NCBI GenBank assembly: GCA_015658775.1
Contig: DQOF01000035.1
Coordinates: 1 to 39,817, forward strand
Length of the DNA stretch: 39,817 nucleotides
Source: Acidimicrobiia bacterium
GTDB taxonomy: Bacteria; Actinomycetota; Acidimicrobiia; Acidimicrobiales; MedAcidi-G1
Reading direction: 5' to 3'
Shown: in pieces, positions 19,388-39,817 of the stretch
Layout: each line of letters starts with the position of its first letter
Position numbering within the stretch: the stretch's first letter is position 1
The notes under the pieces: model-generated
The model's input: only the letters and a program-made list of their open reading frames with translations
Told to the model about the DNA's origin: nothing
The model's database searches: none
Position numbers and translations under genes: made by a program

Positions 19388-20455
19388 TCAGCCGGAAATC
19401 CCCGCGTAACCGGGCTTGATGACTCCGTTGATGAGTTCCAGGCGCTGGTCGAAGGGAAGGAAGGCGCTCTTCATGGCGTTTATCGTGAGCCACCTGAAGT
19501 CGTCCAGCCCCCAGCCGAAGGCGGTCTGCAGGTCGGACAGTTCGGAGGTCATCGAGACGCCGCTCATGAGGCGGTTGTCGGTGTTGACGGTGACACGGAA
19601 GCCCAGATCGCGGAGCAGGCCGATCGGGTGGTCGGCGATGGTGGCGACCGCACCCGTGTGCACGTTGGACGTCGGGCAGAGTTCGAGTGGGAGTCGCCGG
19701 TCTCGCACGAACGCCGCCAACCGGCCAAGTCGCGTGGAGCCGTCGTCGTCGACCGTGATGTCATCGACTATCCGCACACCGTGTCCGAGTCGCTCGGCGC
19801 CGCAGAACTGCACCGCCTCCCAGATCGAGGCCACCCCGAACGCCTCGCCGGCGTGGATGGTGACATGGAAGTTCTCCCTCTGCAGGTACTGGAATGCCTT
19901 CAGGTGGAGGGTCGGCGGGTAGCCGGACTCGCGGCCCGCTATGTCGAATCCGACGACGCCACGGTCCCTGAACCTGATGGCCGCCTCTGCGACGCCGAGG
20001 GAGTCGGTGTCGGTGCGCATGGCGGTGACAAGGGTCGAGACCGTGAGGGCGGTGTCCGCGGAGCCTTCGACGAAGCCCGCCAGAACGGCCTCAATGACCT
20101 CGTCCAGGGACATGCCGCGTCCGGTGTGGAGGGCGGGAGCGAATCGCACTTCTGCATAGACGCATCCGTCGGCGGCGAGGTCGGTTGCGCATTCGGCGGC
20201 GACCCGGTGGCAGGCGTCGGCGGTCTGCATGACGCCGACCGTGTGGGCGAAGGTCTCCAGGTAGAGCCCGAGGTCCCGCCGGGCTGCGCCGCTCAGGAAC
20301 CAGGTTGACAGATCGTCCACGTCGGTGGTCGGCAGGTCGGTGTAGCCGTGCTGGTCGGCGAGTTCTATGACCGTGCCCGCCCGGAGGCCACCGTCGAGGT
20401 GGTCGTGGAGCACGACCTTGGGGGCCCGGCGGATTGTGTCGAGGTCGATTGCCAT
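19388..20455 (-). CDS. add: Adenosine deaminase
   Basis: [102 protein letters not shown]. Confidence 0.95.
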
Positions 20456-20487: not shown

Positions 20488-21342
20488 TCAGACGAAACCC
20501 CGCAGGGGGAGGTCGGCGCCGCGCTGCAGCCAGTTGTCGGCCGGGTAGTCGGCGGCTGCGTCGATGATGTGCAGGGTGTATGCCAGCCTCGCCCGGTCCG
20601 AGGTGTTGGGAGGGCTCCAGTGGGGGAGCAGGCCCGAGAAGGCGATGAGGGTGCCTGCCTGCACCTCGAGGGGCACCAGTAGATCCATGTCGTACGGCGT
20701 CGGGTCGAAGACGTCAGTGGTCGTCCCTGCGTCTTCAAGCCGGAAACGCGTCCTGGCCGGTCCGGCCTGTCCCCCCGGAATCGCCCACATGCACCCGTTC
20801 TCCACCGTTGCGTCCTGAAGGGCGAACCAGAAGCCCGTGACGGTCTGGGGTTCGGTCCACAGGAAGGCGTGGTCACAGTGGCAGACCACCTCGCCGCCGA
20901 TGTGTGGGGGCTTGAAGATCACCATCGACTGCACGAGGAGCGGGTCGACGAAGCCCAGGTCGGCTGCCAGGGCAGCCATCTGCGGTGTCCGGGAGAAGCG
21001 GTCGAACACCGGGTCGAGGTCGTGCATCGCATGGCCCAGCTTGTTGAGTGCCCGGTCCATGGGAACCAGCAGTCGTCCGTCGTCGTCGAATGCACCCTCC
21101 TCGAAGAAGGCCCGCACCTTGTCGCCCGAGTCCAGGAAGTAGCGGTCCTGGGCATGTGACTTCTGCGTGGTGGAGAAGATGGTGGCGGCCTCGCCGGGGG
21201 AGCGGGCCAGGTCTGCGACCATCTCGCCGACGCGTGCGGTCAGCGCCTCGACCTGCGACGGCTCCACGAAGTCGGGCATCACGAGGTAGCCGTCGTCGCG
21301 CCATCCCGCCTGCTGGTCGGCGGTCAGTGACGGGACGCTCAT
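20488..21342 (-). CDS. Phytanoyl-CoA dioxygenase (PhyH) family Fe(II)/2-oxoglutarate-type oxygenase
   Basis: [23 protein letters not shown]; HxD in [40 protein letters not shown]; distal His in [27 protein letters not shown]. Confidence 0.9.
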
Positions 21343-22595
21343 TCCTGCCCCCGTCTGTAGCGGAGGCCGTTGGCTGCGGGCATCCGGAGTCGGCTGGTCG
21401 CCAGGACCAGCACCAGCAGCGTGACTATGTGTGGCGTCACCGGTGGCAGCTCTCCCATGACCTTGTCGGTCACCGCATACCACCACAGCATGGGGGCCGT
21501 GACTAGCAACAGGATTCCGGCGGTCGACAGGCGGTGCTGCTTCAGCGCACGCAGGGCGGCCACGCCCACGGCCACGCCGGCCAGCAGCAGCAGGGCGTGG
21601 ACGGCGGTTCGGTCCCGCAGTTGGAGGGCGTCGGCGAAGCCGAAGAGCAACGATCCGAGGAACGCACCGACGGGCCGCCAGTTTCCGAAGATCACTGTTG
21701 CCAGGCCAATGAAGCCCCGACCCTGGGTCTGGGCCTCACGGTAGATGCCGGTCTGTTCGATCGCGATGAAGGCCCCGCCGAACCCGGCCATGCCGCCGCT
21801 CACCACCACGGCCGTGTACTTCATCCTGTACACGTTGACGCCGAGGCTGTCGGCTGCGACGGGGTGCTCGCCGCTGGCCCTGACCCTCAGGCCGAACGGC
21901 GTGTACCAGAGTACGAACACCGTCGCCGGCACCAGCAGGAGTGCCAGCAGGGTGGCCCAGGAGATGTTGCTCGTGACGCCGGAGGCCACGGCGAACACGT
22001 CGGAGACGATGAACCACCCCCGGTCGGCCAGCCACCCGAAGATGTCCGGCGTGCTCCATCCGAAGAGGTCGCCACCGGAGAGGAAGGGAATGTCCACGTG
22101 CCCGACGCTCTCGACACGCGGCGACTGGGTGATGCCCCCGCCCGGCCTGTTGGAGAAGAACTCGCGGGAGAGGAACCTGGTGATTCCGGGGGCCAGGATG
22201 TTGATGGCGACACCGGAGACGATGTGGTCGACGCCAAAGCCCACGGTGGCCACGGCATGCAGGAGGCCCCCGGCAGCGCCGCCGGCGATGCCGATGGCGA
22301 TTCCCCACCACGGGCCGAACTCGAGCGCTCCCCATGCCCCGAACCAGGTGCCGAGGACCATCATCCCCTCCAGCCCGATGTTGACGACTCCGGCCCGCTC
22401 GGCCCAGATGCCGCCGAGGCCGGCCAACAGGATGGGTACGGCCCGGCGCAGGGTCGAGGCGGCGGTGCCGGCTGAGACCAGGTCGGTGGTCTCGGGCCGG
22501 GCCAGCTCCTGGGTCAGCGAAAGGACGATGATCACACCGAGGGCCATCAGCATCCACCGCAGGACGCGCGACTCCCTCAGCGGCACGGTGCTCAT
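21339..22595 (-). CDS. BMP/nucleoside-type ABC transporter permease
   Basis: VPILLAGLGGIWAERAGVVNIGLEGMMVLGTWFGAWG, NVYRMKYTAVVVSGGMAGFGGAFIAIEQTGIYREAQTQGRGFIGLATVIFGNWRPVGAFLGSLLFG. Confidence 0.93.
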   Translation of the reverse strand: MSTVPLRESRVLRWMLMALGVIIVLSLTQELARPETTDLVSAGTAASTLRRAVPILLAGLGGIWAERAGVVNIGLEGMMVLGTWFGAWGALEFGPWWGIAIGIAGGAAGGLLHAVATVGFGVDHIVSGVAINILAPGITRFLSREFFSNRPGGGITQSPRVESVGHVDIPFLSGGDLFGWSTPDIFGWLADRGWFIVSDVFAVASGVTSNISWATLLALLLVPATVFVLWYTPFGLRVRASGEHPVAADSLGVNVYRMKYTAVVVSGGMAGFGGAFIAIEQTGIYREAQTQGRGFIGLATVIFGNWRPVGAFLGSLLFGFADALQLRDRTAVHALLLLAGVAVGVAALRALKQHRLSTAGILLLVTAPMLWWYAVTDKVMGELPPVTPHIVTLLVLVLATSRLRMPAANGLRYRRGQE

Positions 22596-23710
22596 GGGGT
22601 GCCTCCAGCGTCGGACCGCGCGGACGCGGTGGCGGCATCACGGGCCTCCTGGGCCCGCCGTACCCGGCTGACCACCTCGTAGGCGACCACCGCCGTGAGG
22701 ACGACGACACCCTGGAGGATCGAGACGATCTCACGTGGGGCGTCACCGCGCACGTCGAGGATGGGAGCGGCGCTGTCCAGCCAACCGAACAGGAGTGCCC
22801 CGACGGCGATTCCGGCGGGATGGTTCCTGCCGATCAGCGCCACGGCGATCCCGGCGAAGCCCAGACCCTTGGTGAACGAGAGGTCGAACTTGAAGTCGTC
22901 GCCCAGGATCTCGGGCATCCCGACAAGGCCGGCCACTGCGCCGGAGAGCAGCATCGCCCTCAGCACGGTCGCCTTCGGATCGACGCCGGACGCTTCTGCG
23001 GCGAACGGGTTGAGGCCCGTTATCCGCAGGTCGTATCCGGCCCGGGTGCGGGTCAGGAACAGGTGGAAGAGGATTCCCACGAGGACGGCGACCAGCAGGA
23101 AGCCCCCCAGTTCCCGCCCGCCCTTGATATCCCGCGTGAACGCCTCAACCAGGCCGTTCAGGTTCGGGAAGCGGCCCGATTCGGGGATCTCGGGGGTCTT
23201 CAGGTTGAGGCTCGTGTCCTCGGGGTCGGACAACCAGGTCCTCATCAGGTAGCCGACCATCGAGAGGGCGATGGCGTTGAGCATGATCGTCGAGATCACC
23301 TCGTGGACGCCCCGGGTGACCTTCAGGTAGCCGGCCAGACCGGAGAACGTTGCCGCGACCGTCATGGCGACGACCAGGATGAGCAGCACGTGGAGCGGAG
23401 CCGGCAGGTTGACTGCAGCCCCGGCCGATGCGGCGAGGAGTGCGCCCAGGATGTACTGGCCCTCGACGCCTATGTTGAACAGGTTCATCCTGAACCCGAC
23501 GGCCACGGCGATGCCGGCCAGGTAGAGGGGCGTGGCCCTGTTGCCGGTCTCCACGAGGGTCTCCAGGCGGGTGCCGAAGGAGAGCAGTTCCGCCCATGCG
23601 GCGATCGGGCTGGTACCGACAGCCAGCAGCACCACCGAGGAGATCAGCACCGAGAAGACGAATGCCGACACCGGGGCGGCCAGTGCCATCAGGATCCGTC
23701 GGGAGGTCAT
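22592..23710 (-). CDS. BMP/nucleoside-type ABC transporter permease
   Basis: ATPLYLAGIAVAVGFRMNLFNIGVEGQYILGALLAA, GVHEVISTIMLNAIALSMVGYLM, TKGLGFAGIAVALIGRNHPAGIAVGALLFGWL. Confidence 0.93.
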   Translation of the reverse strand: MTSRRILMALAAPVSAFVFSVLISSVVLLAVGTSPIAAWAELLSFGTRLETLVETGNRATPLYLAGIAVAVGFRMNLFNIGVEGQYILGALLAASAGAAVNLPAPLHVLLILVVAMTVAATFSGLAGYLKVTRGVHEVISTIMLNAIALSMVGYLMRTWLSDPEDTSLNLKTPEIPESGRFPNLNGLVEAFTRDIKGGRELGGFLLVAVLVGILFHLFLTRTRAGYDLRITGLNPFAAEASGVDPKATVLRAMLLSGAVAGLVGMPEILGDDFKFDLSFTKGLGFAGIAVALIGRNHPAGIAVGALLFGWLDSAAPILDVRGDAPREIVSILQGVVVLTAVVAYEVVSRVRRAQEARDAATASARSDAGGTP

Positions 23711-25284
23711 GGCGACGACTCCGCGCCGGGCGGGTCGTCGGGCGGGCCCGAAGCGGTCGTGTCTGCACCGGGTCGGCCTGCGCCGGTCATGTGGCTGCCG
23801 AGCAGTCGGGGCGTGGTCGTAGCCGGATCCAGGTCTGCGACGATCCGGCCACCCAGCATCACGAGCAGGCGGTCGGCCAGACCGATCAACTCGTGCAGGT
23901 CGGCGGACACCAGCAGCACGGCCAGCCCGTCGGCGCGGGCCCGGCGCAGCCTGTCCCAGACAGCGGCCTGGGCACCGACGTCAATGCCCCGGGTCGGGTG
24001 TGCCGCCACCAGTAGCCGGGGTTCGGCGATCATCTCCCGACCTATCAGGAGCTTCTGCTGGTTTCCACCGGACAGTGCCTGCGCGGTGGTGTTGATCCCG
24101 GGAGTGCGGACATCGAACTGGTCGACGATCTGTTGTGTCACGCCACGTGCGCCGGGTCGGTCGATGAGCGGGCCCCTGGCGAATGGCCGGCTGGTCTGGT
24201 GGCCGAGCATCGCGTTCTCCCACAGCGGGGCGTCCAGCAGGAGGCCCCGCCGGTGTCGGTCCTCGGGCACGTAGCCGATTCCCGCCTCGCGGCGTCGCCT
24301 CACGGGCCAGTCACCGATGCTCTCACCTTCCAGGGTGATGCCGCCCGCAGCCAGGGCCCTCAGCCCGAGCAGCGCCTCGACCAGTTCGACCTGACCGTTG
24401 CCCTCCACTCCGGCAATGCCCAGGATCTCCCCACGGTGGATCGTGAGGTCGATGTCGGTGAGTACCTCGCGGCCGTCGTCGCCGACGACGGACACGCCCG
24501 ACACCGACAGGGTGACGTGGTCGTCGGTCACATGCGGAGCGACGGACGGCGACGGCAGGTCGCTCCCGATCATCAACTCCGCCAACTCCTGTGCCGTGAC
24601 CCCGTCGGCATCGACGGTGGCCACGGTGCGCCCCTGGCGGAGCACGGTGATGGTGTCGGCGATGGTGAGCACCTCTTCGAGCTTGTGGTCGATGAAGATG
24701 ATCGTGTGACCCTGGGCCTTCAGTTCGCGCAGGTTGCGGAAGAGTTCCTCCACCTCCTGGGGTACGAGGACGGCGGTGGGCTCGTCAAGGATGAGCACCC
24801 TGGCTCCCCTGTAGAGGACCTTGATGATCTCCACCCGCTGTCGTTCGCCCACCTCTAGGGTCTCCACGAGGTCGTCCGGGTGGAGGTCCAGGCCGTAGGA
24901 GGCCCCCAGGGCCTTGATGCTGGAGCGGGCCGCTGCCCGGTCGATGGTTCCCCGACGCCTGGGTTCGGCACCCAGGATCACGTTCTCGAGCACAGTCAGG
25001 TTGTCGGCCAGCATGAAGTGCTGGTGGACCATGCCGATTCCCGCTGCGATCGCCTCGGCGGGGGAGGTGAACCGCACGTCGTCGCCGCCGACGGCCATGG
25101 TCCCCTCGTCGGGTGGCAGCATCCCGTAGAGGATCTTCATGAGCGTCGACTTGCCGGCGCCGTTCTCGCCGACCACTGCGTGGATCTCGCCCTCGGCGAC
25201 CCGCAGGTGGACATCGTCGTTTGCCACGACGCCGGGGAAGCGCTTGGTGATGCCGGTCAGCTCTACGGCTGTCGGTTCGCTCAT
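23707..25284 (-). CDS. BMP/nucleoside-type ABC transporter ATP-binding protein (duplicated ATPase)
   Basis: GENGAGKSTLMKILYGMLPPDEG, LEVGERQRVEIIKVLYRGARVLILDEPTAVL, second half GIAGVEGNGQVELVEALLGL, ALSGGNQQKLLIGREMIAEPRLLVAAHPTRGIDVGAQ. Confidence 0.95.
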   Translation of the reverse strand: MSEPTAVELTGITKRFPGVVANDDVHLRVAEGEIHAVVGENGAGKSTLMKILYGMLPPDEGTMAVGGDDVRFTSPAEAIAAGIGMVHQHFMLADNLTVLENVILGAEPRRRGTIDRAAARSSIKALGASYGLDLHPDDLVETLEVGERQRVEIIKVLYRGARVLILDEPTAVLVPQEVEELFRNLRELKAQGHTIIFIDHKLEEVLTIADTITVLRQGRTVATVDADGVTAQELAELMIGSDLPSPSVAPHVTDDHVTLSVSGVSVVGDDGREVLTDIDLTIHRGEILGIAGVEGNGQVELVEALLGLRALAAGGITLEGESIGDWPVRRRREAGIGYVPEDRHRRGLLLDAPLWENAMLGHQTSRPFARGPLIDRPGARGVTQQIVDQFDVRTPGINTTAQALSGGNQQKLLIGREMIAEPRLLVAAHPTRGIDVGAQAAVWDRLRRARADGLAVLLVSADLHELIGLADRLLVMLGGRIVADLDPATTTPRLLGSHMTGAGRPGADTTASGPPDDPPGAESSP

Positions 25285-25329: not shown

Positions 25330-26088
25330 TCAGTAGAGGATCTTGTCGAAGAACGCCCTGGTGCGCTCCTGGGCCGGGTTGGCGAAGACCTCGTCGGGTG
25401 GGCCGATCTCGACGATCTCGCCCTCGTCGATGAAGACGAGGCGGTCCGCGGCCGCCCTCGCAAATCCCATTTCATGGGTGACGACTACCATCGTCATGCC
25501 TTCGGAGACGAGCTCGAGCATGACGTCCAGGACCTCCTTGACCATCTCGGGGTCGAGGGCCGAGGTGGGTTCGTCGAACAGCATCACCTTCGGCTCCATG
25601 GCCAGCGCCCTCGCGATGGCCACCCGCTGCTGCTGGCCTCCGGATAGTTGGCGCGGGTAGGCGTCGGCCTTCTCAGGGATGCCCACGTGGACGAGTTGGC
25701 GCATCCCCATCTCCCTGGCCTCGCCCCTGCTCCGGTCACGGACCTTGCGCTGCGCCAGCGTGATGTTCTCCATCACCGTGAGGTGGGGGAACAGGTTGAA
25801 CTGCTGGAACACCATGCCGACCTCGGCACGGACGCGGTCTATGTCTGTCCGCGGGTCGGTGACCTCGAAGCCGTCGACCTCGACGGTCCCCTCGGTGGGG
25901 ATCTCGAGAAGGTTGATGCAGCGCAGGATGGTCGACTTGCCGGAGCCACTGGGCCCGACAATGACGACCACCTCGCCCTCGGCGACGTCGAGGTCCACGT
26001 TTCGCACCGCGTGGATCGTCTTGTCGAACGTTTTCGTGAGGCCCCGTATGGAGATCATGTTGGCGCCCGGCCCGGCGTCGCTGGTCAT
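25330..26088 (-). CDS. Polar amino acid ABC transporter ATP-binding protein (GlnQ-like)
   Basis: [98 protein letters not shown]. Confidence 0.96.
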
Positions 26089-26089
26089 G

Positions 26090-26953
26090 TCAGCGCTGCC
26101 CCTTGCGGTCGCGTGTCATGCGCCGTTCGAGCAGGCTCAGCAGCAGTGAGAGGCTGAGTGTCAGGAGCAGGTAGATGAACGAGACGACGAAGTAGCCCTC
26201 GCGGAACTTGAAGGTGCTGGCCGAGAACTGGCGTCCACGCTGGGTGATCTCCAGTACGCCGAGGACCGACAGCAGCGATGTGTCCTTCAGGATCGCTATG
26301 AAGTCGTTGCCGAGGGGCGGGATGATCGCCCGCATGGCCTGGGGCAGGACGACCGAGCTCATGGTCTGGCGCCGGGTCAGGCCCAGCGAGCGTCCGGCTT
26401 CGCTCTGGCCCGGCGGAACCGACTGGATGCCGCCCCTGAAGATCTCGGCCATGTAGGCGCCGTAGATCAGGGCCAGGGTGACGGTGGCACGCATCTGGAA
26501 CGAGAGCTTGAACTCCCAGCCGAACCATGCGTCCAGCCGGCTGTTCAGGGCGTCGGTCACCTCGGGCACGACTATCAGGGCCACGGTGAAGATGAGGGGC
26601 AGGATCGGGATTCCGCGGATGAACTCGACGTAGGTGCGTGCCACGTTTCGAGACACCACGTTCCGGGAGAGCTGGCCCATGCCCGCCACCATGCCGATGA
26701 TGAGGGCGATGGTGAACGCCTGCAGGGTGGAGGTGATGGTGAGGCGCAGGCCCGGCGCGATCCGGGTCCAGGCCAGTTCGTAGTTCTCCTTCGTGAGGAT
26801 CTGCCAGGCCATCCACAGCAGGATCGCCACGATGATGGCTCCCCACCAGGGGAAGGTGTCCCACCACGGACGCTCGTCGGTGACACGCGTCGCCCCGCGC
26901 CGACCACGCTGCACCCGGCGCGGTTCCGTTGCCACCGCCTCGCTTTCCGTCAA
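26090..26953 (-). CDS. Polar amino acid ABC transporter permease
   Basis: [30 protein letters not shown]...[22 protein letters not shown]...[73 protein letters not shown]. Confidence 0.95.
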
Positions 26954-29352: not shown

Positions 29353-30732
29353 ATGGCAACCGACCCTCTCGCCGCACGCACGGTGACGGCCCTGACAGAA
29401 GGATCCGCATCCATGCCACCAGTCGGTCGAGAGCGATTCATCGCTGACGTCGTGGTCACGTGCGATGAAGCCGATTCCGTCCATGGCCCCGGCGTCGTCG
29501 ACATCGAGGACGGCAGGATCTGCTGGGTCGGGCCCAAGGCTGATGCACCAGAAGCATGCACAACCATGTCGGTGAACGACATCGGTGGTCTGCTGATGCC
29601 GGGACTGGTGAACTCCCACTGTCACACGCCCATGACGCTCGTGCGCGGGGTCGGCGACGGCCTTCCTCTCCAGCGGTGGCTCACCGAGGCCATGTGGCCG
29701 CGGGAGGGTCGCATGACCCCGGAGGACGTCTGGTGGGGCATGACCCTCGGGTCGGCCGAGATGCTGCGGGCCGGGGTCACCACCAGCTGCGAGATGTACC
29801 TCCACGAGGAACCCATCGTCGATGCCGTCGGGGCATCGGGCGCCCGACTGGTGATCACCCCCGGGGTGGTGTCGGCGCTCCACCCGGGCGACTCGGGTGA
29901 CGGCCGAACGGCGGCCATCGTCGACTTCCATGCCCGTCACCACGACCCGAAAGGCCGCATCACGGTGGGCTTGGGGCCCCACTCGGCCTACGACCTGGGG
30001 GTCGAACGGGTCGCAGCGCTGGCCGGGACGGCCCGCCAACTCGACGCCGTGCTGCACATCCACCTGGCCGAGACCACCCAGGAGAGCGCCGGGTTGGTGG
30101 CCGAACACGGGTGCAGCGTCGTGCGCTCCCTTGCCGATCACGGGGTGTTCGAGGGTCGGGTGCTGGCCGCCCACGGCGTCTGGGTCGACGACGACGACAT
30201 CTCGATCCTGGCCGAGTGGGGCGTAGCGATCGCCCACTGCCCGTTGTCCAACATGAAGTTGGGGTCGGGCATCGCCCCGGTCGAAGCCATGCGGCGAGCC
30301 GGGGTGACCGTGGCGTTGGGGACCGACGGACCTGCGTCGAACGACACGCTGAACCTCTGGGAGGAGGTCAAGTTCGCCCCGCTGCTGGCCCGGGTGCATG
30401 CCCTCGACGCCACGGTGCTTCCGCCGGTCGAGACGTTGGCCATGGCCACCCGAATCGGAGCGCTGGCCGTCGGCCTCGACGATGTCGGATGTCTGGCTCC
30501 CGGCTTCGCCGCCGACATGATCAGGATCGACCTCGACCACCATGCGTTTGTTCCGGTCACCGAACCGGCAGACCTGCTCGCCCACCTGGCGTGGGCCGGC
30601 TCGGACCGCCTGGTCAGCGACGTGTGGGTGGCCGGCAACCAGGTGGTGGCCGGAGGCCGGGTGCTCACCGTCGACGAGGAGCGCGCCCGGGCCGAGGTCC
30701 AACAGCGGGCCCAGCGTCTGGCAGCCGGATGA
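29353..30732 (+). CDS. Amidohydrolase, 5'-methylthioadenosine/S-adenosylhomocysteine deaminase-like
   Basis: GLLMPGLVNSHCHTPMTLVRGVGDGLPLQRWLTEAMWPREGRMTPEDVWWGMTLGSAEMLRAGVTTSCEMYLHEEPIVDAV, HIHLAETTQE, VLAAHGVWVDDDDISILAEWGVAIAHCPLSNMKLGSGIAPVEAMRRAGVTVALGTDGPASNDTLNLWEEVKFAPLL. Confidence 0.93.
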   Translation: MATDPLAARTVTALTEGSASMPPVGRERFIADVVVTCDEADSVHGPGVVDIEDGRICWVGPKADAPEACTTMSVNDIGGLLMPGLVNSHCHTPMTLVRGVGDGLPLQRWLTEAMWPREGRMTPEDVWWGMTLGSAEMLRAGVTTSCEMYLHEEPIVDAVGASGARLVITPGVVSALHPGDSGDGRTAAIVDFHARHHDPKGRITVGLGPHSAYDLGVERVAALAGTARQLDAVLHIHLAETTQESAGLVAEHGCSVVRSLADHGVFEGRVLAAHGVWVDDDDISILAEWGVAIAHCPLSNMKLGSGIAPVEAMRRAGVTVALGTDGPASNDTLNLWEEVKFAPLLARVHALDATVLPPVETLAMATRIGALAVGLDDVGCLAPGFAADMIRIDLDHHAFVPVTEPADLLAHLAWAGSDRLVSDVWVAGNQVVAGGRVLTVDEERARAEVQQRAQRLAAG

Positions 30733-31180: not shown

Positions 31181-31912
31181 TTACCAGGTGGGCCGGGCGA
31201 GCACGCCGCCGTCGACCACCAGGTCGACGCCGGTGATCCACCGGGCCTGGTCGGACACGAGGAAGGCCACCGCGTCGGCCACGTCCTCGGGTGTGCCCAG
31301 ACGGCCGAGGGGAGCGGCGGCCAGCCATCGGTCGACCCCTTCGGGCCACCGCTCGGCCAGCCGGCCGTCGTCGATGAGCCCCGGTGACACCGAGTTGATC
31401 CGGATGCCCGAGGGCCCCAACTCCAGGGCTGCGGCCCGGGTGGCCATCACCAGGCCGGCCTTCGCCGCGGCGTAGTGAGCGTGTCCGGCCGCCGGTTGGT
31501 GCGCCTCGATGGAGGCGATGTTGACCACCGCCCCGCCCTCGTGCATGACGGTGGCGGCCGCAGCGGTGAGCACCTGGGTGGCCCGAAGGTCGACGGTCAG
31601 CACCTCGTCCCAGGCGGCGGCGGTGAGGGCGTTGAACGGTTCGACGGGCTGGATGCCGGCGTTGTTGACCAACAGGTCCAGGCGACCGGTGGCCGCCACG
31701 GTCTCGTCAACCAGGCGTCGAGGCTCCCCGATGGCGGCCAGGTCGGCGATAAGCAGCGGGGTGCCCAACTCGGCGGCCAGCGGCTCGGCCCGTCGTGTGC
31801 TCCGGTGGGCGGCGGCGACGACGCACAGACCGTCGGCGTGCAGGCGTCGGGCGATGGCCGCCCCGATGGCACCGTCGGCGCCGGTGACCAGGGCGACGGG
31901 CGTGCCGTTCAT
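31181..31912 (-). CDS. SDR family oxidoreductase
   Basis: PVALVTGADGAIGAAIARRLHADGLCVV, LVNNAGIQPVEPF, HYAAAKAGLVMATRAAALELGPSGIRINSVSPGLI, WITGVDLVVDGGVLARPTW. Confidence 0.93.
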   Translation of the reverse strand: MNGTPVALVTGADGAIGAAIARRLHADGLCVVAAAHRSTRRAEPLAAELGTPLLIADLAAIGEPRRLVDETVAATGRLDLLVNNAGIQPVEPFNALTAAAWDEVLTVDLRATQVLTAAAATVMHEGGAVVNIASIEAHQPAAGHAHYAAAKAGLVMATRAAALELGPSGIRINSVSPGLIDDGRLAERWPEGVDRWLAAAPLGRLGTPEDVADAVAFLVSDQARWITGVDLVVDGGVLARPTW

Positions 31913-32649
31913 CCTTGCACCCAACGGGCACCGAGGACGGTGGCCGCCCCACCCAGCAGACGGGCGACCGGATCGGCCGCGATGGCCAGCACCTGCCAGA
32001 TCTCGTCCAGGGTCAACTCCACGTCACCCAGGCCGGCCGCCGGGTTCGACACCACGCCGACCGATGCGTACGGCAGGGCCAGCTCGCGGGCCAGCGCTAC
32101 CTCCGGGTAGCCGGTCATGCCCACCAGGTCGCCGCCGAAGCCGGCGTACATCCTGATCTCAGCCGGGGTCTCGAACCGGGGTCCGTTGGCGCACACATAG
32201 GTGCCCCCGTCGACGACGGCCAGGCCCTCCTCGTCGGCCACATGGCGCAGGATGCCCCGCAGGTCGGGGTCGTACGGTTCGGTCATGTCGGTGTGGCGGA
32301 CCTCGTCGTCGAAGAAGGTGTCGGCCCGTCCGCTGGTCTGGTCGACGAACTGGTCGATCAGCACCAGGGTGCCGTTGGCGTAGGAGGGGTTGATGCCACC
32401 GCTCACCGCGGTGGCCAGCACCGCCCGGGCGCCGACGTCGTGGAGTGCCCACAGGTTGGCCCGGTAGTTGATGCGCTGGGGAGGCACCGAGTGGCCGGAG
32501 CCGTGGCGGGGGAGGAACGCCACCGGACAGTTGTTCCATGTTCCGAGGGTGAGCTCGACCGGCCCGTAGGGTGTGTCGAGCACGGGTGTGCGACGATCCG
32601 TCACGCCGGGGAGGTCGTAGAAGCCGCTTCCGGTGATGAGTCCCAACAC
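31909..32649 (-). CDS. 5'-methylthioadenosine / methylthioinosine phosphorylase-like protein
   Basis: GLITGSGFYDLPG, FLPRHGSGHSVPPQRINYRANLWALHDVGARAVLATAVSGGINPSYANGTLVLIDQFVDQTSGRADTFFD, YVCANGPRFETPAEIRMYAGFGGDLVGMTGYPEVALARELALPYASVGVVSNPAAGL. GTG start at 32649. Confidence 0.9.
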   Translation of the reverse strand: MLGLITGSGFYDLPGVTDRRTPVLDTPYGPVELTLGTWNNCPVAFLPRHGSGHSVPPQRINYRANLWALHDVGARAVLATAVSGGINPSYANGTLVLIDQFVDQTSGRADTFFDDEVRHTDMTEPYDPDLRGILRHVADEEGLAVVDGGTYVCANGPRFETPAEIRMYAGFGGDLVGMTGYPEVALARELALPYASVGVVSNPAAGLGDVELTLDEIWQVLAIAADPVARLLGGAATVLGARWVQG

Positions 32650-32668
32650 GACAGCCGAGGGTAGTCAG

Positions 32669-33727
32669 ATGGCGGAAGCAACATCGGACCAGCGACCACA
32701 TACCGTCGATTATCTCGACGGTGTGGTCGTGCTGCTGGACCAGACAGCGCTCCCGGACCAGGAGCGGTACGTCCGGTGCGACACCTGGCAGCGGGTCGCC
32801 TCGGCGATTGCCGACCTGGAGGTGCGGGGTGCTCCGGTGATCGGGGTGACCGCGGCCTTCGGCTTGGCTCTGGCGGCCAAGGCATCCACCGCGGTGACCC
32901 CGGATGGTCTGCGCGCCGAGCTGGGCGAGGTGGCCGCTGCATTGATCGCTACTCGGCCGACGGCGGTGAACCTGGCGTGGGCCGTCGAGGCGGTGATGGC
33001 TGCCGCCGGTGCGACAGCGGACACGGTGGATGAGGTGCAAAAGGCCGTCGAGGCGTGTTCCCGGCGACTCCACGCCGAGGATCTGGCGGTGTGTCGGGCC
33101 ATCGGGGATGCCGGGGCGGCCCTGTTGGAAAGGATGAGCGACGTCATCACCCACTGCAACGCGGGTGCTCTGGCCACTGTTGGGTACGGCACCGCCCTGG
33201 GGGTCGTCCGATCGGCTCACCGGGTGAACCCGAACCTCCACGTGTGGGTCGATGAGACCCGACCGGTGCTGCAAGGGGCCCGGTTGACCGCCTTCGAATT
33301 GGGGCGCGACGGCATCGACTGCACGGTCATCGCAGACGGGGCAGCAGCATCGGTGTTGGCGGCCGGTGGGGTCGGCGCGGCGGTGGTCGGCGCCGACCGG
33401 ATCGCCGCCAACGGCGATGTCGCCAACAAGATCGGCACCTACGGCCTGGCTGTGTCGTGTCGGCACCACGGGGTGCCGTTCTACGTTGCTGCTCCACGGT
33501 CCACGATCGATGTCGACACTCCCGACGGGGCCGCCATCGAGATCGAGCAACGTCCGGCGGCCGAGGTCGCCGAGTACGGGGGCAGGCCCATCACCCCGTT
33601 CGGAGCCCGGGTGTTCAACCCGGCGTTCGACGTGACCCCGGCCGAACTGATCGACGGCATCGTCACCGAGGTCGGGGTGTTGCGGGCGCCGTACGGTCCG
33701 GCCATCGTCGCAGCGATGGCTCGTTGA
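32669..33727 (+). CDS. mtnA: S-methyl-5-thioribose-1-phosphate isomerase
   Basis: VVLLDQTALPDQERYVRCDTWQRVASAIADLEVRGAPVIGVTAAFGLALAAK, ITHCNAGALATVGYGTALGVVRSAH, VWVDETRPVLQGARLTAFELGRDGIDCTVIADGAAASVLAAGGVGAAVVGADRIAANGDVANKIGTYGLAVSCRHHGVPFYVAAPRSTID. Confidence 0.96.
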   Translation: MAEATSDQRPHTVDYLDGVVVLLDQTALPDQERYVRCDTWQRVASAIADLEVRGAPVIGVTAAFGLALAAKASTAVTPDGLRAELGEVAAALIATRPTAVNLAWAVEAVMAAAGATADTVDEVQKAVEACSRRLHAEDLAVCRAIGDAGAALLERMSDVITHCNAGALATVGYGTALGVVRSAHRVNPNLHVWVDETRPVLQGARLTAFELGRDGIDCTVIADGAAASVLAAGGVGAAVVGADRIAANGDVANKIGTYGLAVSCRHHGVPFYVAAPRSTIDVDTPDGAAIEIEQRPAAEVAEYGGRPITPFGARVFNPAFDVTPAELIDGIVTEVGVLRAPYGPAIVAAMAR

Positions 33728-33739
33728 CCGGCGGGAGGA

Positions 33740-35275
33740 TCAGGCTGGTTGGTCGCTGCCCGACAGCATGAGCCGACCGATGTGGGCCCGGTCCAGGTCG
33801 GCGGCATCGGCCACGATGACCAGGCGTCCCCGGTAGATCACCCCGATCCGGTCGGAGAGGCTCAGGATCTCGTCCAACTCCGCGGAGACCAGCAGAACCC
33901 CGACCCCGCGATCCCGCTGCTCGATCAACTGACGGTGGACGAACTCGATACTGCCGACGTCGATACCCCGGGTGGGTTGTGCGGCGACCAGCAGGGGTGC
34001 TCCATGGGAGAACTCGCGGGCGGCGATGACCTTCTGCTTGTTGCCACCTGACAACGATCGGGCGGGTGCGTCGATCGAGGCGGTTCTGATGTCGAACCGT
34101 TCGACCAGATGCCGGGCCTCGTCGTCGATGGCTGCGGGTTGGCGCACACCGCGCCGTGCGAACGGCGGACGGTGGTAGCGGTTCAGCACCAGGTTGTCGG
34201 CGATCGAATGGGCAGCGATCAGACCGTGTTTCTCACGATCCTCGGGCACATGGGCCACCCCCAACTCGGAGATCTCACGGGGTCGGTGGCCGGCCAACTC
34301 GGTGCCATTGACCCGGATGGAGCCGTCCAGCACGTCCCGCAGGCCAGTGATGGCTTCCACCAGCTCACGCTGCCCGTTGCCTTCGACGCCAGCGATGCCG
34401 AAGATCTCTCCGGAGCGGACCTCGAGATCGAGGTCGTCGACAGCCGGCCGACCACGGTCGTCCTGGACGCACAGGCCGTCGATGGACAACACCGGGTCGC
34501 CAGGACGGGCAGCCGACTTCGGGACCCGGAGTACGACGCTGCGGCCGACCATCATCTCGGCAAGGCCCGCCTCGTCGGTCTCGGCCGGATCGGTGGAACC
34601 GACGACACGGCCGTGACGCATCACGGTCACCCGGTCGGCGATGGCCAGCACCTCACGCAGTTTGTGGGTGATGAACACGACGGCGACGCCTTCGGCGGCC
34701 AACCCACGGAGCACGCCGAGCAACTGGTCGGTCTCCTGGGGGGTGAGCACGGCAGTGGGCTCGTCCAGGATCAACACGTCGGCCTGCCGGTAGAGCGAGC
34801 GGAGGATCTCGACGCGCTGCTGGGTGCCCACCGGGAGGTCCTCGAGCACGGCCCGGGGGTCGACATCGAGGCCGTAGCGTTCGGCCAGGCGGGTCACCTC
34901 GGCCGCTGCGGCGTCGAGATCGAGCACACCGAGACCCCGGGTGGGTTCCTGGCCCAACACCACGTTCTCGGCGACGGTGAGAACGGGAACCAACTGGAAA
35001 TGTTGGTGGACCATTCCGATGCGGTGGGCGATGGCGTCACGCGGGCTGTCCATCCGGACGGGCTTGCCGGCGACCCGGATCTCACCCTCGTCGGCGTGGT
35101 AGAGGCCGAATAAGATGTTGACCAAGGTGCTCTTGCCGGCCCCGTTCTCTCCCAGCAGGGCGTGGACCGTGCCGGCCTCGACCTGCAGGTCGACGTCCTC
35201 GTTGGCGGTGATCGACCCGAACCGTTTGGTGACCCCGATGGCCTCAAGCGCGAGCGGCGCCTGCACGGCGGTCAT
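33740..35275 (-). CDS. BMP/nucleoside-type ABC transporter ATP-binding protein (duplicated ATPase)
   Basis: LLGENGAGKSTLVNILFGLYHADEGEIRV, LPVGTQQRVEILRSLYRQADVLILDEPTAVLTPQE, GIAGVEGNGQRELVEAITGL, LSGGNKQKVIAAREFSHGAPLLVAAQPTRGIDVGS. Start at ATG 35275. Confidence 0.95.
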   Translation of the reverse strand: MTAVQAPLALEAIGVTKRFGSITANEDVDLQVEAGTVHALLGENGAGKSTLVNILFGLYHADEGEIRVAGKPVRMDSPRDAIAHRIGMVHQHFQLVPVLTVAENVVLGQEPTRGLGVLDLDAAAAEVTRLAERYGLDVDPRAVLEDLPVGTQQRVEILRSLYRQADVLILDEPTAVLTPQETDQLLGVLRGLAAEGVAVVFITHKLREVLAIADRVTVMRHGRVVGSTDPAETDEAGLAEMMVGRSVVLRVPKSAARPGDPVLSIDGLCVQDDRGRPAVDDLDLEVRSGEIFGIAGVEGNGQRELVEAITGLRDVLDGSIRVNGTELAGHRPREISELGVAHVPEDREKHGLIAAHSIADNLVLNRYHRPPFARRGVRQPAAIDDEARHLVERFDIRTASIDAPARSLSGGNKQKVIAAREFSHGAPLLVAAQPTRGIDVGSIEFVHRQLIEQRDRGVGVLLVSAELDEILSLSDRIGVIYRGRLVIVADAADLDRAHIGRLMLSGSDQPA

Positions 35276-36270
35276 TCGCGGTCGTAGGGCTGACCCAGCG
35301 AGGCCGGGGGTCGGGCCCGGCCGACGAAGCCGGCCAGCACGATGATGGTCACGATGAAGGGCAGCATCCCAACGAACTGCGGGTGGTCGGTGAACCATCC
35401 CCGGAACTGGAACTGGGTCTGGATGGCGTTCGTGTAGCCGAACAGCAGGGCCGCACCCCAGGCTCCGACCGGGTTCCACCGGCCGAAGATCATGACGGCC
35501 AGGGCCACGAACCCCTTGCCGTTGGTCATGCCCCGTTCGAATGAGCCGACGGCTTCGAGGCTGAGGTAGGCGCCGGCCAGGCCGGCGATGGCGCCACCCA
35601 GGATGAGGTTCAGGTACCGCATCCGGACGACGGAGATGCCGACTGTTTCCGCCGCGCTGGGGTGTTCGCCGACGGCTCGTGTGTGCAACCCCCAGGTGGT
35701 GCGGAACAGGGCGTACCAGAGGGCGACGACGAGCAGCAGCGACACATAGGTGATGGGCGGGTTTATGAAGAACACCTTGCCGATGACGGGCAGGTCGGCC
35801 AGTGGCCCGAGCCTAATGATCGGTGTCTTGCCGGGAAGGGAACGCCCCTGGGTGAAGAAGAAGCTGGTGAGGCCGATGGCAGCGATGTTGAGCACCGTGC
35901 CGGCGATGATTTGGTCGCCTTTGAGCGTGACCGACAGTCCAGCCAGGGCAGCCCCCATCAGGGCGCCGACGGTGATGCCGGCGGCCACACCCATGAGCAG
36001 CGACTGGCTGCCGGAAGCGACCATGAAGCCGGCGAAGGCCGACATGAGCATCTGGCCTTCGATGCCGATGTTGACGACACCGGACCGCTCGCTGAGGATG
36101 CCGCACATGGCGCCGAGGACGAGCGGTGTGGAGTGCCGAAGAGTGGCGGCCAGGATCGCAGTGGTGGGATCCAGTCGGAAGTCGCCGGTGAACAACGTGA
36201 AGGCGGTGATGCCGATGATGACCACCAACCACCAGCGGTATCTGACGAGTCGTCCGGCGAGGGTGGTCAT
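35272..36270 (-). CDS. BMP/nucleoside-type ABC transporter permease
   Basis: STPLVLGAMCGILSERSGVVNIGIEGQMLMSAFAGFMV, MRYLNLILGGAIAGLAGAYLSLEAVGSFERGMTNGKGFVALAVMIFGRWNPVGAWGAALLFGYTNAIQ. Confidence 0.94.
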   Translation of the reverse strand: MTTLAGRLVRYRWWLVVIIGITAFTLFTGDFRLDPTTAILAATLRHSTPLVLGAMCGILSERSGVVNIGIEGQMLMSAFAGFMVASGSQSLLMGVAAGITVGALMGAALAGLSVTLKGDQIIAGTVLNIAAIGLTSFFFTQGRSLPGKTPIIRLGPLADLPVIGKVFFINPPITYVSLLLVVALWYALFRTTWGLHTRAVGEHPSAAETVGISVVRMRYLNLILGGAIAGLAGAYLSLEAVGSFERGMTNGKGFVALAVMIFGRWNPVGAWGAALLFGYTNAIQTQFQFRGWFTDHPQFVGMLPFIVTIIVLAGFVGRARPPASLGQPYDRE

Positions 36271-37328
36271 GTCGATCCCCAGGTTGCCCCGACCGAGACG
36301 CCGTCGTCCTGTCGACTCTTGACGAACCAGCGGACGATGATCGGGGTGGCGACGAACAACAGGATCAACGCTTCGATCACGTCCACGATTTCCGGCGCGA
36401 CCCCCGCTTTGAACTGCATGAGGGAAGCGGACGCGTTCATCGCCGCGATCAGGATGGCTGCGGGGATGACGGCGATCGGGTGGGTGCGAGCCAACAGGGC
36501 GATGGTGATGCCGTCGAATCCGAGCCCGGCGTTGACGCCGGGTTCGTAACGTCCCACGACGCCGAGAGTTTCGATGGAACCGCCGATGGCGGCGAGGAAG
36601 CCGCTGATCGTCATGGTCAGGACGATGATGCGCTTCACCGAGATGCCCGCGTAGCCGGCTGCGCTCGGGTTCAGGCCGACCGAACGGATCTCGAATCCGA
36701 ACGTCGTGCGTTGCAGGAGGAACCAGATGGCCAGGGCGAAGGCCACGGCGATGAAGAAGCCGAGTGGCACATGGCCCCAGGTGGGGATCTCGGCGCTGTC
36801 CTCGATGATCGGCGTACGCACCAGGATGTCACCTTCCTTGCGCCACACCTTGGTGGCCAGCCACTCCGCCATGTTGGCGGCCACGAAGTTCAACATGATG
36901 GTGGTGATCACCTCGTGGGCGCCGCGCGTCGCCTTGAGGATTCCGGGGATGGCTCCCCAGGCTGCACCTGCAACGGCACCGAGCAGTAGCGCCAGGGGCA
37001 TGTGGATGATCCACGGGAGTCCGGTGAACCCGTAGCCGACGGCACCGGCGATCAGGGCGCCGAACAGCAACTGGCCCTGGCCGCCGATGTTGAACAGGCC
37101 CGCTTTGAAGGCGAAGGCCACTGCGAGACCCCCCATGATCAGGGGCGTGGCCTTTTCGAGGGTCGTTCCGAACGATTCCCAGCCGAAGAACGACCCCTCG
37201 ATCAGGGCCGAGTAGGCCTCAACCGGGCTTGATCCGGAGGTTGCGATCAGGATGGCCCCGACCACGAGCGCCAGCGTGACGGCGATCAGCGGAATGAGGG
37301 CGGAGCGCAGAACACTCACGGGAATCAA
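36267..37328 (-). CDS. BMP/nucleoside-type ABC transporter permease
   Basis: ATPLIMGGLAVAFAFKAGLFNIGGQGQLLFGALIAG, GAHEVITTIMLNFVAANMAEWLATKVW, GLGFDGITIALLARTHPIAVIPAAILIAAMNASASLMQFKAG. Confidence 0.94.
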   Translation of the reverse strand: MIPVSVLRSALIPLIAVTLALVVGAILIATSGSSPVEAYSALIEGSFFGWESFGTTLEKATPLIMGGLAVAFAFKAGLFNIGGQGQLLFGALIAGAVGYGFTGLPWIIHMPLALLLGAVAGAAWGAIPGILKATRGAHEVITTIMLNFVAANMAEWLATKVWRKEGDILVRTPIIEDSAEIPTWGHVPLGFFIAVAFALAIWFLLQRTTFGFEIRSVGLNPSAAGYAGISVKRIIVLTMTISGFLAAIGGSIETLGVVGRYEPGVNAGLGFDGITIALLARTHPIAVIPAAILIAAMNASASLMQFKAGVAPEIVDVIEALILLFVATPIIVRWFVKSRQDDGVSVGATWGST

Positions 37329-37395: not shown

Positions 37396-39817
37396 TTATT
37401 CGTCTCCGAACGAGTAGCCGGTCTCCATCGAGCCGTCGTTGAGGGCGGCTGCGATCTCGTCGATGGTGGCCTTCACGTCATCGGGGATGACGGAGTCGAA
37501 GTCGTGGTACGGAGCCAGGCCCACGGTGCCGTAGTAGTTGCCGCTCGGGAGTTCTCCGGCGGCAGCCATGACGACGAGCGTGGACACGCCCTGCACCAGG
37601 TGCTTCTCGGCGCTGGTGATCAGGCACGGCTTTGCCTCGGGCACCGAGTACCACTGATCGATGTCGACACCGATGCAGAACACCGACTCACCGGCGGTAG
37701 CGGCAGCAGCGACCTCCATGAGGCCGCCGTTTCCGGTGGAGCCACCGGCAGCGAAGATCACGTCGGCTCCCTGGTCCATGGCCTGGCGGGAGGTCGTGGC
37801 GCCCCACTCAGGATCGCCGAAGGCCACCTCGATGGCCCCCGGATGGTAGGTCTTCAGGATCTCGATGTCCGGGTTGATGTACCGTGCACCGCGGTCGAAA
37901 CCGTTGCCGAAGGCCTGCACCGGCGGAACCAGGTTGGTGCCGAGCACCTGACCGACGATGCCGGTCGAGGACATGCTTGCAGCCAGGGCACCGGCAAGGA
38001 AACCGGCGCGGTCCTCGTTGAAGATGAGGCCGGCCACGTTGGACAGGGCCTCGCCCTGCCACATGTCGACACCGATGAAGTTGATGTCCGGGTACTCCGC
38101 GGCGGCGATGCCAGTGGCTTCACCCATCGCGAAACCGACGGTCACGATGATCTCGCAGCCGGCGTCGGCAAAGAGGCCGATGTTGGCGGCGTAGTCCTTC
38201 GAGTTCTGGGTCTCGATGTAACTCACGTCCACACCGATGGCTTCGGCGCCCTCTTGTGCACCCTGCCATGAGGCCTGGTTGAAGGACTTGTCATCGACCA
38301 GACCGACGTCGGTCACGAGACCGATGCAGCGTTCGTCTGCTGCTGCTTCCTCCTCCTCCTCCGTGTACACGCCATCGGTGATGTCGTCGTAGGTGATCGT
38401 GAAGGAGTCGGTGAAGTACCGCTGGGCGAGCGCCGTCATGGTGCCGTCGCCGATCATCGCGATGATGGCGGCGTCGAAGGCCGGCACGAGGTCACTGCCC
38501 TTCGGGAAGATGAAGGCCAGCGGGTCTGCGGCGAGCACCTCGTCGAGAAGGTCGACATCGTCGGGGTTCTCGCCCTTGTAGCCGTTGCCGGCCACATCGT
38601 CCATGATCACGGCGCACACGTCGCCGGTGATCATCGCCTGTACCGCGAAGCCGAACTGTTCGAATGCGATGACACGGCCCTCACCGACGACGCCCACGGC
38701 CACGTCGTAGTTGGTCGTGCCGGTCTGTGAGCCGACGCTGCAGTCCGACGCCTCGAGGTCGGCCTTGGAGGTGATCTCGGTGCTGCCCTTGGAGACCAGG
38801 ATCTTCTGGTCGGTGCTGATGTAACTCACCGAGTAGTCGACGATCTTCGACCGCTCCTCGGTGACGGAGATGCCGTCAGCCGCCAGGTCGAAGTGGCCTT
38901 CCGAGACAGCAATGATCATGCCGTCCCACGCGAACTCCTGGTAGTCGGGCACGCAGTTGATACGGGCGCAGATCTCGTCGATCGCGTCGTAGTCCCAGCC
39001 GCCGGCCTCACCGGTCGTCGCATCGATGTAGTTGAACGGCAGATAGGCGTTCTCGATCGCAATGGTGATCGTGCGGCCACCCAGGTCGGGCATGACCACG
39101 GCACGCTCACCGGGGGTCGTGGGCACGACGATGCCCCCACCCACGATCTTGGCCTTGAGGTCCTCGAGGGTTCCGACGATGTCATCGATGAACCCACCGG
39201 TTGTCGAGTAGCCGACGCCGTCGACGGCCAGGTCGAACGACTGTCCGCCGGCGACGAAGTTTCCTTCGGCGACCGCTTTGATGGTGTTGAACACCGCCAC
39301 GTCGACGCGCTTGAGCATCGAGGTGAGGATGTAGTCGCGTACAGCCTCGTCGGCGGTCAGGTACTGGTCGGCGTCCACGCCGATCGCCCAGACCTTCGAA
39401 CCCGACTCCTCGGAGTACGACTTGGCCGCCTCGAACAGGCCGCCGCCGGAGCCACCGGCGGCGTGGTAGACGATGTCGGCGCCACTCTCGTACATCGACT
39501 GGGCGATCTCACGAGCCCGGTCGGGTGCGTTGAAGCCCGAGAAGTCCGGCGGCTCGCTTATGTACTCCACCAGGACGGTTGCACCGGGGCTGGTGTTCTC
39601 TACACCGGCGACGAAGCCGGCCTCGAACTTGCCGATCAGGTCGATCGACACGCCACCGATGAACCCGACGGTTCCGGTCTGGCTCTTAAGGCCTGCCGCT
39701 GCGCCGACGAGGAAGGAACCCTCGTGCTCGGCGAACCCCAGGGAGGCGACGTTGGGTGCCTCGACCCAGCCGTCGATGATGCCGAAGGCCGTGTCCGGGT
39801 ACTCTGCTGCGACCTCA
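37396..39817 (-). CDS. Multidomain substrate-binding protein: BMP domain, SBP_bac_3 domain, BMP domain; 5' end beyond the window
   Basis: One frame stays open to the window edge (upstream of the listed start: EVAAEYPDTAFGIIDGWVEAPNVASLGFAEHEGSFLVGAAAGLKSQTGTVGFIGGV). BMP1: ADIVYHAAGGSGGGLFEAAKSYSEESGSKVWAIGVDADQY. SBP3: RTITIAIENAYLPFNYIDATTGEAGGWDYDAIDEICARINC...MIIAVSEGHFDLAADGISVTEERSKIVDYSVSY. BMP2: CIGLVTDVGLVDDKSFNQASWQGAQEGAEAIGVDVSYIET...DVIFAAGGSTGNGGLMEVAAAATAGESVFCIGVDIDQ. Confidence 0.9.
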   Translation of the reverse strand, partial: EVAAEYPDTAFGIIDGWVEAPNVASLGFAEHEGSFLVGAAAGLKSQTGTVGFIGGVSIDLIGKFEAGFVAGVENTSPGATVLVEYISEPPDFSGFNAPDRAREIAQSMYESGADIVYHAAGGSGGGLFEAAKSYSEESGSKVWAIGVDADQYLTADEAVRDYILTSMLKRVDVAVFNTIKAVAEGNFVAGGQSFDLAVDGVGYSTTGGFIDDIVGTLEDLKAKIVGGGIVVPTTPGERAVVMPDLGGRTITIAIENAYLPFNYIDATTGEAGGWDYDAIDEICARINCVPDYQEFAWDGMIIAVSEGHFDLAADGISVTEERSKIVDYSVSYISTDQKILVSKGSTEITSKADLEASDCSVGSQTGTTNYDVAVGVVGEGRVIAFEQFGFAVQAMITGDVCAVIMDDVAGNGYKGENPDDVDLLDEVLAADPLAFIFPKGSDLVPAFDAAIIAMIGDGTMTALAQRYFTDSFTITYDDITDGVYTEEEEEAAADERCIGLVTDVGLVDDKSFNQASWQGAQEGAEAIGVDVSYIETQNSKDYAANIGLFADAGCEIIVTVGFAMGEATGIAAAEYPDINFIGVDMWQGEALSNVAGLIFNEDRAGFLAGALAASMSSTGIVGQVLGTNLVPPVQAFGNGFDRGARYINPDIEILKTYHPGAIEVAFGDPEWGATTSRQAMDQGADVIFAAGGSTGNGGLMEVAAAATAGESVFCIGVDIDQWYSVPEAKPCLITSAEKHLVQGVSTLVVMAAAGELPSGNYYGTVGLAPYHDFDSVIPDDVKATIDEIAAALNDGSMETGYSFGDE

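Follow-up and report, generated by a model that had tools for sequence, protein, structure and literature searches.

A substrate-binding lipoprotein combining domains of two families near three ABC importer cores in an Acidimicrobiales genome, and its probable role as a multi-headed receptor

The window, i.e. the whole stretch of 39,817 nucleotides analysed here, is a complete contig (G000:C168) of an Acidimicrobiales MAG of 2.0 Mb in 216 contigs with a completeness of about 90%. On its minus strand, a frame of 806 codons plus stop (37396-39816) runs without interruption up to the window edge, where it is still open; since the window is the entire contig, the frame is truncated by the contig end and not by biology. 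It encodes BMP1, SBP_bac_3 (hereafter SBP3) and BMP2 in that order, with Pfam scores of 210.6 bits for Bmp (cut-off 24.1; two stretches) and 99.6 bits, far over the cut-off, for SBP_bac_3. Although the G+C content here makes long frames cheap, homology to these domains extends along the entire frame, which is therefore not a product of chance. The original prediction had claimed one unbroken minus-strand frame reaching the window edge, with BMP, SBP_bac_3 and BMP domains on a single polypeptide; both claims were borne out, the latter by Pfam and blast, and the three-domain fusion is confirmed as real.

Furthermore, three ABC importer cores are encoded in the window, all on the minus strand and none with an SBP of its own: two of the BMP type (core 1, 33740-37328; core 2, 21339-25284), each with the RbsC-type permeases and double ATPase that partner Bmp/PnrA proteins, and one of the polar-amino-acid type (PAAT core, 25330-26953) (Table 1). 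A tally of the genome gave one SBP_bac_3 domain, that of the window chain, and one PAAT permease, both inside the window, while its Bmp domains are BMP1, BMP2 and one stand-alone copy on contig C30, near BPD_transp_2 permeases there. Between 27372 and 33727, MtnA, the MTA/MTI phosphorylase and the MTA/SAH-deaminase-like amidohydrolase cluster with a bifunctional aldolase/SDR and a cupin, a grouping that points to methylthioadenosine or 5'-deoxynucleoside salvage and is partly conserved in other genera.

Table 1 Domains of the chain, importer cores and neighbouring genes in the window.
Feature	Position	Strand	Remarks
BMP1 domain (PF02608)	39130..39816	-	Pfam, blast; first ~77 residues on contig C135
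Linker BMP1-SBP3	39094..39129	-	about 12 aa, no signal peptide (blast boundaries)
SBP_bac_3 domain (PF00497), amino-acid-binding type	38389..39093	-	Pfam, blast
Linker SBP3-BMP2	38341..38388	-	about 16 aa; at end of constant SBP3 tail ITYDDITDGVY
BMP2 domain (PF02608)	37399..38340	-	Pfam, blast, predicted fold
BMP-type core 1, permease a (BPD_transp_2)	36267..37328	-	
BMP-type core 1, permease b (BPD_transp_2)	35272..36270	-	
BMP-type core 1, double ATPase	33740..35479	-	true start probably downstream of listed frame start
MtnA, 5-methylthioribose-1-phosphate isomerase	32633..33727	+	
MTA/MTI phosphorylase (purine nucleoside phosphorylase family)	31909..32649	-	
Amidohydrolase related to MTA/SAH/5'-deoxyadenosine deaminases	29353..30732	+	
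Polar amino-acid importer permease (GlnP/HisM type)	26090..26953	-	only one found in genome
Polar amino-acid importer ATPase (GlnQ type)	25330..26088	-	
BMP-type core 2, double ATPase	23707..25284	-	
BMP-type core 2, permease a	22592..23710	-	
BMP-type core 2, permease b	21339..22595	-	
Adenosine deaminase family protein	19388..20455	-	

A search of the MAG located the missing start at the edge of contig C135, which encodes a lipoprotein signal (MSKRVQGLLAVLLGSILVFSAC-GS, with a lipobox ending ...SILVFSAC-GS), a spacer of the Thr/Ala/Pro type (TTAAPAATTAAP) and the first half of BMP1. C135 and the window end are identical at 163 of 165 overlapping bases, and both mismatches are silent. Moreover, at least six genomes, both congeners and members of other genera, have YchF in divergent orientation upstream of the BMP1-SBP3 gene, and C135 has it likewise; this shared position supports the join. 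Retrieval of the full ORF, which the original prediction had called for, thereby yielded a chain of about 944 aa. Given the join, the chain has the N-terminal signal and lipobox cysteine of a bacterial lipoprotein, with one lipobox in all; a scan of the whole chain revealed no second lipobox or signal peptide inside it, in keeping with the short, signal-free linkers described at the outset, and Pfam and hydrophobicity analysis detected neither a permease domain nor a strongly hydrophobic segment beyond the signal, the permeases being separate genes. Compared with a congener (G002), 106 of 151 changes in BMP1 and 14 of 20 around the BMP1-SBP3 linker fall at third codon positions, and this bias covers BMP1, linker and SBP3 alike, as expected of one protein under selection.

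Regarding the individual domains, both BMP domains are assigned the type I periplasmic-binding fold of PnrA, BMP2 by a model that is confident over the domain (top Foldseek matches Lbp-guanosine, PnrA and BmpD) and BMP1, as a part-domain, by sequence matches to Lbp/PnrA. For SBP3, the best matches to solved amino-acid SBPs include AncCDT-1, AncQR and ArtJ, and its TEERSKIVDYS aligns with TPERKKKVDFS, keeping the Arg of the TxER motif, the carboxylate-binding residue of amino-acid SBPs. The AlphaFold structure of SBP3, predicted from a shallow alignment, has a pLDDT below 50 for most of the domain. A joint alignment of all three domains placed the BMP2 rows on BMP1 and was left out of the analysis. 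By class only, SBP3 would bind an amino acid and the BMP heads nucleosides or 5'-deoxy/thio-nucleosides, the latter because MtnA, the MTA/MTI phosphorylase, the MTA/SAH-group deaminase and the adenosine deaminase are encoded nearby.

The original prediction had proposed looking for the same architecture in other genomes, and both junctions turn up again in independently assembled genomes: over 15 assemblies of family f1 have BMP1 and SBP3 in a single frame, and the SBP3-BMP2 junction is found again in G007 and G012. Overall, the f1 mosaics draw on six families (Bmp, SBP_bac_3, OpuAC, Peripla_BP_6, SBP_bac_5 and Phosphonate-bd). Eleven ORFs, ten of them in f1, combine two or more SBP families and lie whole, from stop to stop, within a contig; the mixed ORFs examined have a single lipobox near the N-terminus, except G009 C34 and G030, for which the scan gave none. 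Among others, Pfam assigned the combinations Bmp-SBP_bac_3-OpuAC (G031, 1058 aa), Bmp-SBP_bac_3-OpuAC-SBP_bac_3 (G019, truncated by the contig end), OpuAC-SBP_bac_3-SBP_bac_5 (G025, G038), Bmp-Bmp-SBP_bac_5 (G009, G030), SBP_bac_3-OpuAC (G032), Peripla_BP_6-OpuAC-Bmp-Phosphonate-bd (G006, 1471 aa) and Peripla_BP_6-Bmp (G024; in G032 by blast). Among 399 genomes drawn evenly from the phylum, no chain of Bmp and SBP_bac_3 was found outside f1. Mixed fusions as such are not confined to f1, since a different family of the class has a Bmp-Phosphonate-bd lipoprotein (G390, L238:1213-3306, minus strand), which adjoins a core-2 ATPase. Separately, two equal-score Bmp stretches share a 772-aa frame in G009 (C65:7696-9363), likely a recent tandem duplication, and a 1013-aa frame at L196:1108-4146 (minus strand) fuses two ProW-like permease halves beside ProV.

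The SBP3 domains end in a near-constant tail resembling ITYDDIGDGAY, which is followed by BMP2 in the window, G007 and G012, by Peripla_BP_6 in G002, G003, G004 and G006, by two kinds of OpuAC in many genomes, by SBP_bac_5 in G036, G038, G040 and also G025, and by a further Peripla_BP-like module in G021. The SBP3-BMP2 linker of the window is thus an exchange point at which other genomes have other modules. Conversely, BMP2-type domains come after SBP3, Peripla_BP_6, OpuAC, or only signal and spacer. Many MAG contigs end a few dozen residues past the SBP3 tail, as is to be expected if the next module exists in several near-identical copies; two OpuAC modules of G004, for instance, are 99.6% identical over 1029 bp, and two BMP2 copies of G012 are 96% identical over 135 bp. 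At L180:191-2230, two tandem OpuAC modules with 99.6% identical DNA lie upstream of ProV-ProW. In G002, two different SBP genes on two contigs enter the same 99 bases at the start of a Peripla_BP_6 module (L139:1-99, L190:1-99), which may be a shared cassette or an assembly branch. Module exchange by homologous recombination would be the natural reading of these junctions. A wider proposal is tentative, and on balance we lean slightly against it: a cassette system in which recombination exchanges domains from six or more SBP families among polyspecific lipoproteins, and each lipoprotein can serve several ABC importers of unrelated kinds, in cis as well as in trans.

The genomic context links each head to one of the cores. 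Outside the family, BMP1 orthologues lie directly upstream of core-2 orthologues (ATPase) in 17/17 loci examined, a set that leaves out BMP1-like domains belonging to a kinase or a STAND regulator; some of these orthologues are single and some duplicated, and one is joined to Phosphonate-bd. The two loci that break this adjacency, L233 and L237, are kinases bearing a BMP domain. In these frames (L233:124-4020 and L237:74-3214, both plus strand; 1047-1299 aa) a Ser/Thr kinase domain is fused to a C-terminal BMP1-like domain, and they are probably receptor kinases that sense the same kind of ligand. Similarly, regulators of 1247-1301 aa at L050:3121-6861 (plus strand) and L051:5787-9689 (minus strand) combine Trans_reg_C, BTAD and nSTAND1 with a Bmp domain, which would make them STAND-type regulators with a nucleoside-SBP-like sensor. 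An SBP3 orthologue precedes a PAAT core in an outgroup (L248), and BMP2 relatives precede core 1 at L132 and L133 and, more distantly, at L243. Within the family, BMP1 is present in 19 of 23 genomes with core 2 and in none of the 26 without it; the pair is confined to genera g1 and g5 and was not found in g2, g3, g4 and g6, so that this co-occurrence tracks genus limits and offers very few independent contrasts, species of one genus not being independent. In addition, the matching head is often present before the importer in f1 mosaics (SBP5-DppBCDF, Phosphonate-bd-PhnCE, OpuAC-ProVW, BMP2-core 1). Taken with co-inheritance, the outgroup orthology means that the pairing of heads with cores rests on more than counting.

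The pairing is imperfect. In G024 the PAAT core is preceded by an OpuAC module and a strong SBP3 is lacking; G009, G014, G018 and G022 likewise combine a PAAT core with no strong SBP3. Such cases may reflect loss, gaps in the assembly or the use of a different head. Several relatives have a Peripla_BP_6 or OpuAC module or a BMP2 copy appended after SBP3, and it is this module that lies closest to the PAAT core. The gene order YchF - core 1 - deaminase - PAAT core is the same in genera g3 and g6, for which reason a local rearrangement in the window was dropped as an explanation of its gene order; no SBP was found at the corresponding locus in g3 and g6, nor for core 1 in g4, and heads for these cores would therefore have to act in trans. 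The individual domains do have outgroup orthologues that are encoded as stand-alone SBPs at different loci; this accounts for how the fusion arose and does not speak against it. No relative was seen to carry three separate SBP genes at the window locus, the arrangement that the original prediction had set against a fused receptor.

We consider it probable, at roughly two chances in three, that the protein is a multi-headed substrate-binding lipoprotein, whose three heads share one lipid anchor and each deliver to their own importer. Three binding domains that fold independently would be attached to a single N-terminal lipid anchor through a flexible spacer. Core 2 would receive a nucleoside-type ligand captured by BMP1 and core 1 a second one captured by BMP2, while SBP3 would supply the polar amino-acid core with an amino acid; the heads would dock in turn, from within the chain, each on its own translocator. 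The linkers of 12-16 residues are close to the 14 residues that join two tandem domains of GlnPQ from Lactococcus lactis, which bind and close independently (PMC8025302), so that by analogy the heads here likely bind and close independently as well. The protein would belong to the f1 mosaic set, in which binding-domain cassettes may be copied and exchanged between operons, and the benefit could perhaps be that a nutrient-scavenging monoderm cell gains extra binding sites for each lipid anchor, that the heads are co-expressed, or both.

It is improbable, though it deserves first mention among the alternatives, that only the head matching the next importer transports, the others being passengers, stores of ligand or side products of similar modules recombining. 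The near-identical OpuAC and BMP2 copies of G004 and G012 fit such an origin, and extra modules are often far from their own core; however, the three cores of the window have no other SBP and are located together, BMP1 and core 2 are jointly present or absent by genus, and changes in BMP1 and SBP3 fall mostly at third codon positions. Only marginally less plausible is a secreted polyprotein that is translated once, anchored, and then cut in its linkers to release single binding proteins. Fusion would make the expression of three SBPs equal, and the linker between SBP3 and BMP2 is a short, acidic stretch with little conservation, yet no conserved cleavage motif was evident by eye across the variable junctions, and with a single lipid anchor, cutting would in a monoderm free all domains but the N-terminal one unless those freed were otherwise retained.

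Much less likely still is that MAG assembly joined pieces of separate SBP genes via repeated modules. Contigs of many relatives do break right after SBP3, contig ends share overlaps of k-mer length, and the window gene itself spans two contigs with 2 mismatches in their overlap. Nevertheless, both junctions recur across independent assemblies, fusions are found whole within contigs, the order from YchF to the PAAT core agrees with g3 and g6, and the divergent YchF recurs in at least six genomes, so that a chimeric contig was rejected as the main reading on junction recurrence and synteny. Finally, a single receptor binding a conjugate ligand (SAH-like or aminoacyl-nucleoside) across its domains, which the adjoining MTA/purine salvage enzymes might suggest, is very improbable, because every domain is a complete SBP with a core of its own importer class, the domains are combined freely from species to species with several different modules following SBP3, and BMP1 comes and goes together with core 2. 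Thus, of the two possibilities raised in the original prediction, the tethered multi-ligand receptor accords with the findings, with three domains, one anchor and three matching cores without an SBP, and the conjugate receptor is not supported.

ABC importers are usually described as having one receptor, or several, per pump. If the multi-headed reading is true, importers can share and exchange their specificity modules, the apparently orphan importers of these genomes, with no SBP adjoining the pump, find an explanation, and the reading of SBP abundance and substrate range from metagenomes changes; if the cassette reading is true as well, the usual design of one SBP for one importer is uncoupled. 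Moreover, the family provides natural linkers and domain orders for studying the effects of tethering on capture and delivery, the question that GlnPQ poses for a single family.

Although its parts are members of known families, we found no report of the mixed-fold, multi-importer arrangement, nor a description of any free SBP chain of mixed folds, a weak negative given that subscription papers lay mostly outside the scope of the literature covered. The nearest system is GlnPQ, which likewise links Venus-flytrap domains by a short flexible linker; its two domains have different ligands and act independently, as the heads here would. However, in GlnPQ both domains belong to a single family, form part of the permease polypeptide and serve one translocator, whereas the window chain is a free lipoprotein of mixed SBP families without such a permease fusion and matches several translocators. 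The BMP/PnrA nucleoside-binding lipoproteins (Treponema TmpC/PnrA, pneumococcal PnrA, C. thermocellum Lbp), to which BMP1 and BMP2 belong by Pfam and BMP2 also by predicted fold, are single-domain proteins, unlike the window chain. Tandem BMP-BMP lipoproteins in other families of the class (frames of about 700-840 aa) also place two domains on one anchor and adjoin core 2, but duplicate the same domain and mix no folds. A relation between SBP and translocator that is not one to one is known from HisJ/ArgT, where several SBPs share the importer HisQMP. Likewise, DppA1-A5 share DppBCDF (PMC4206461). In both cases several proteins serve one pump, whereas in the window one protein appears to serve several.
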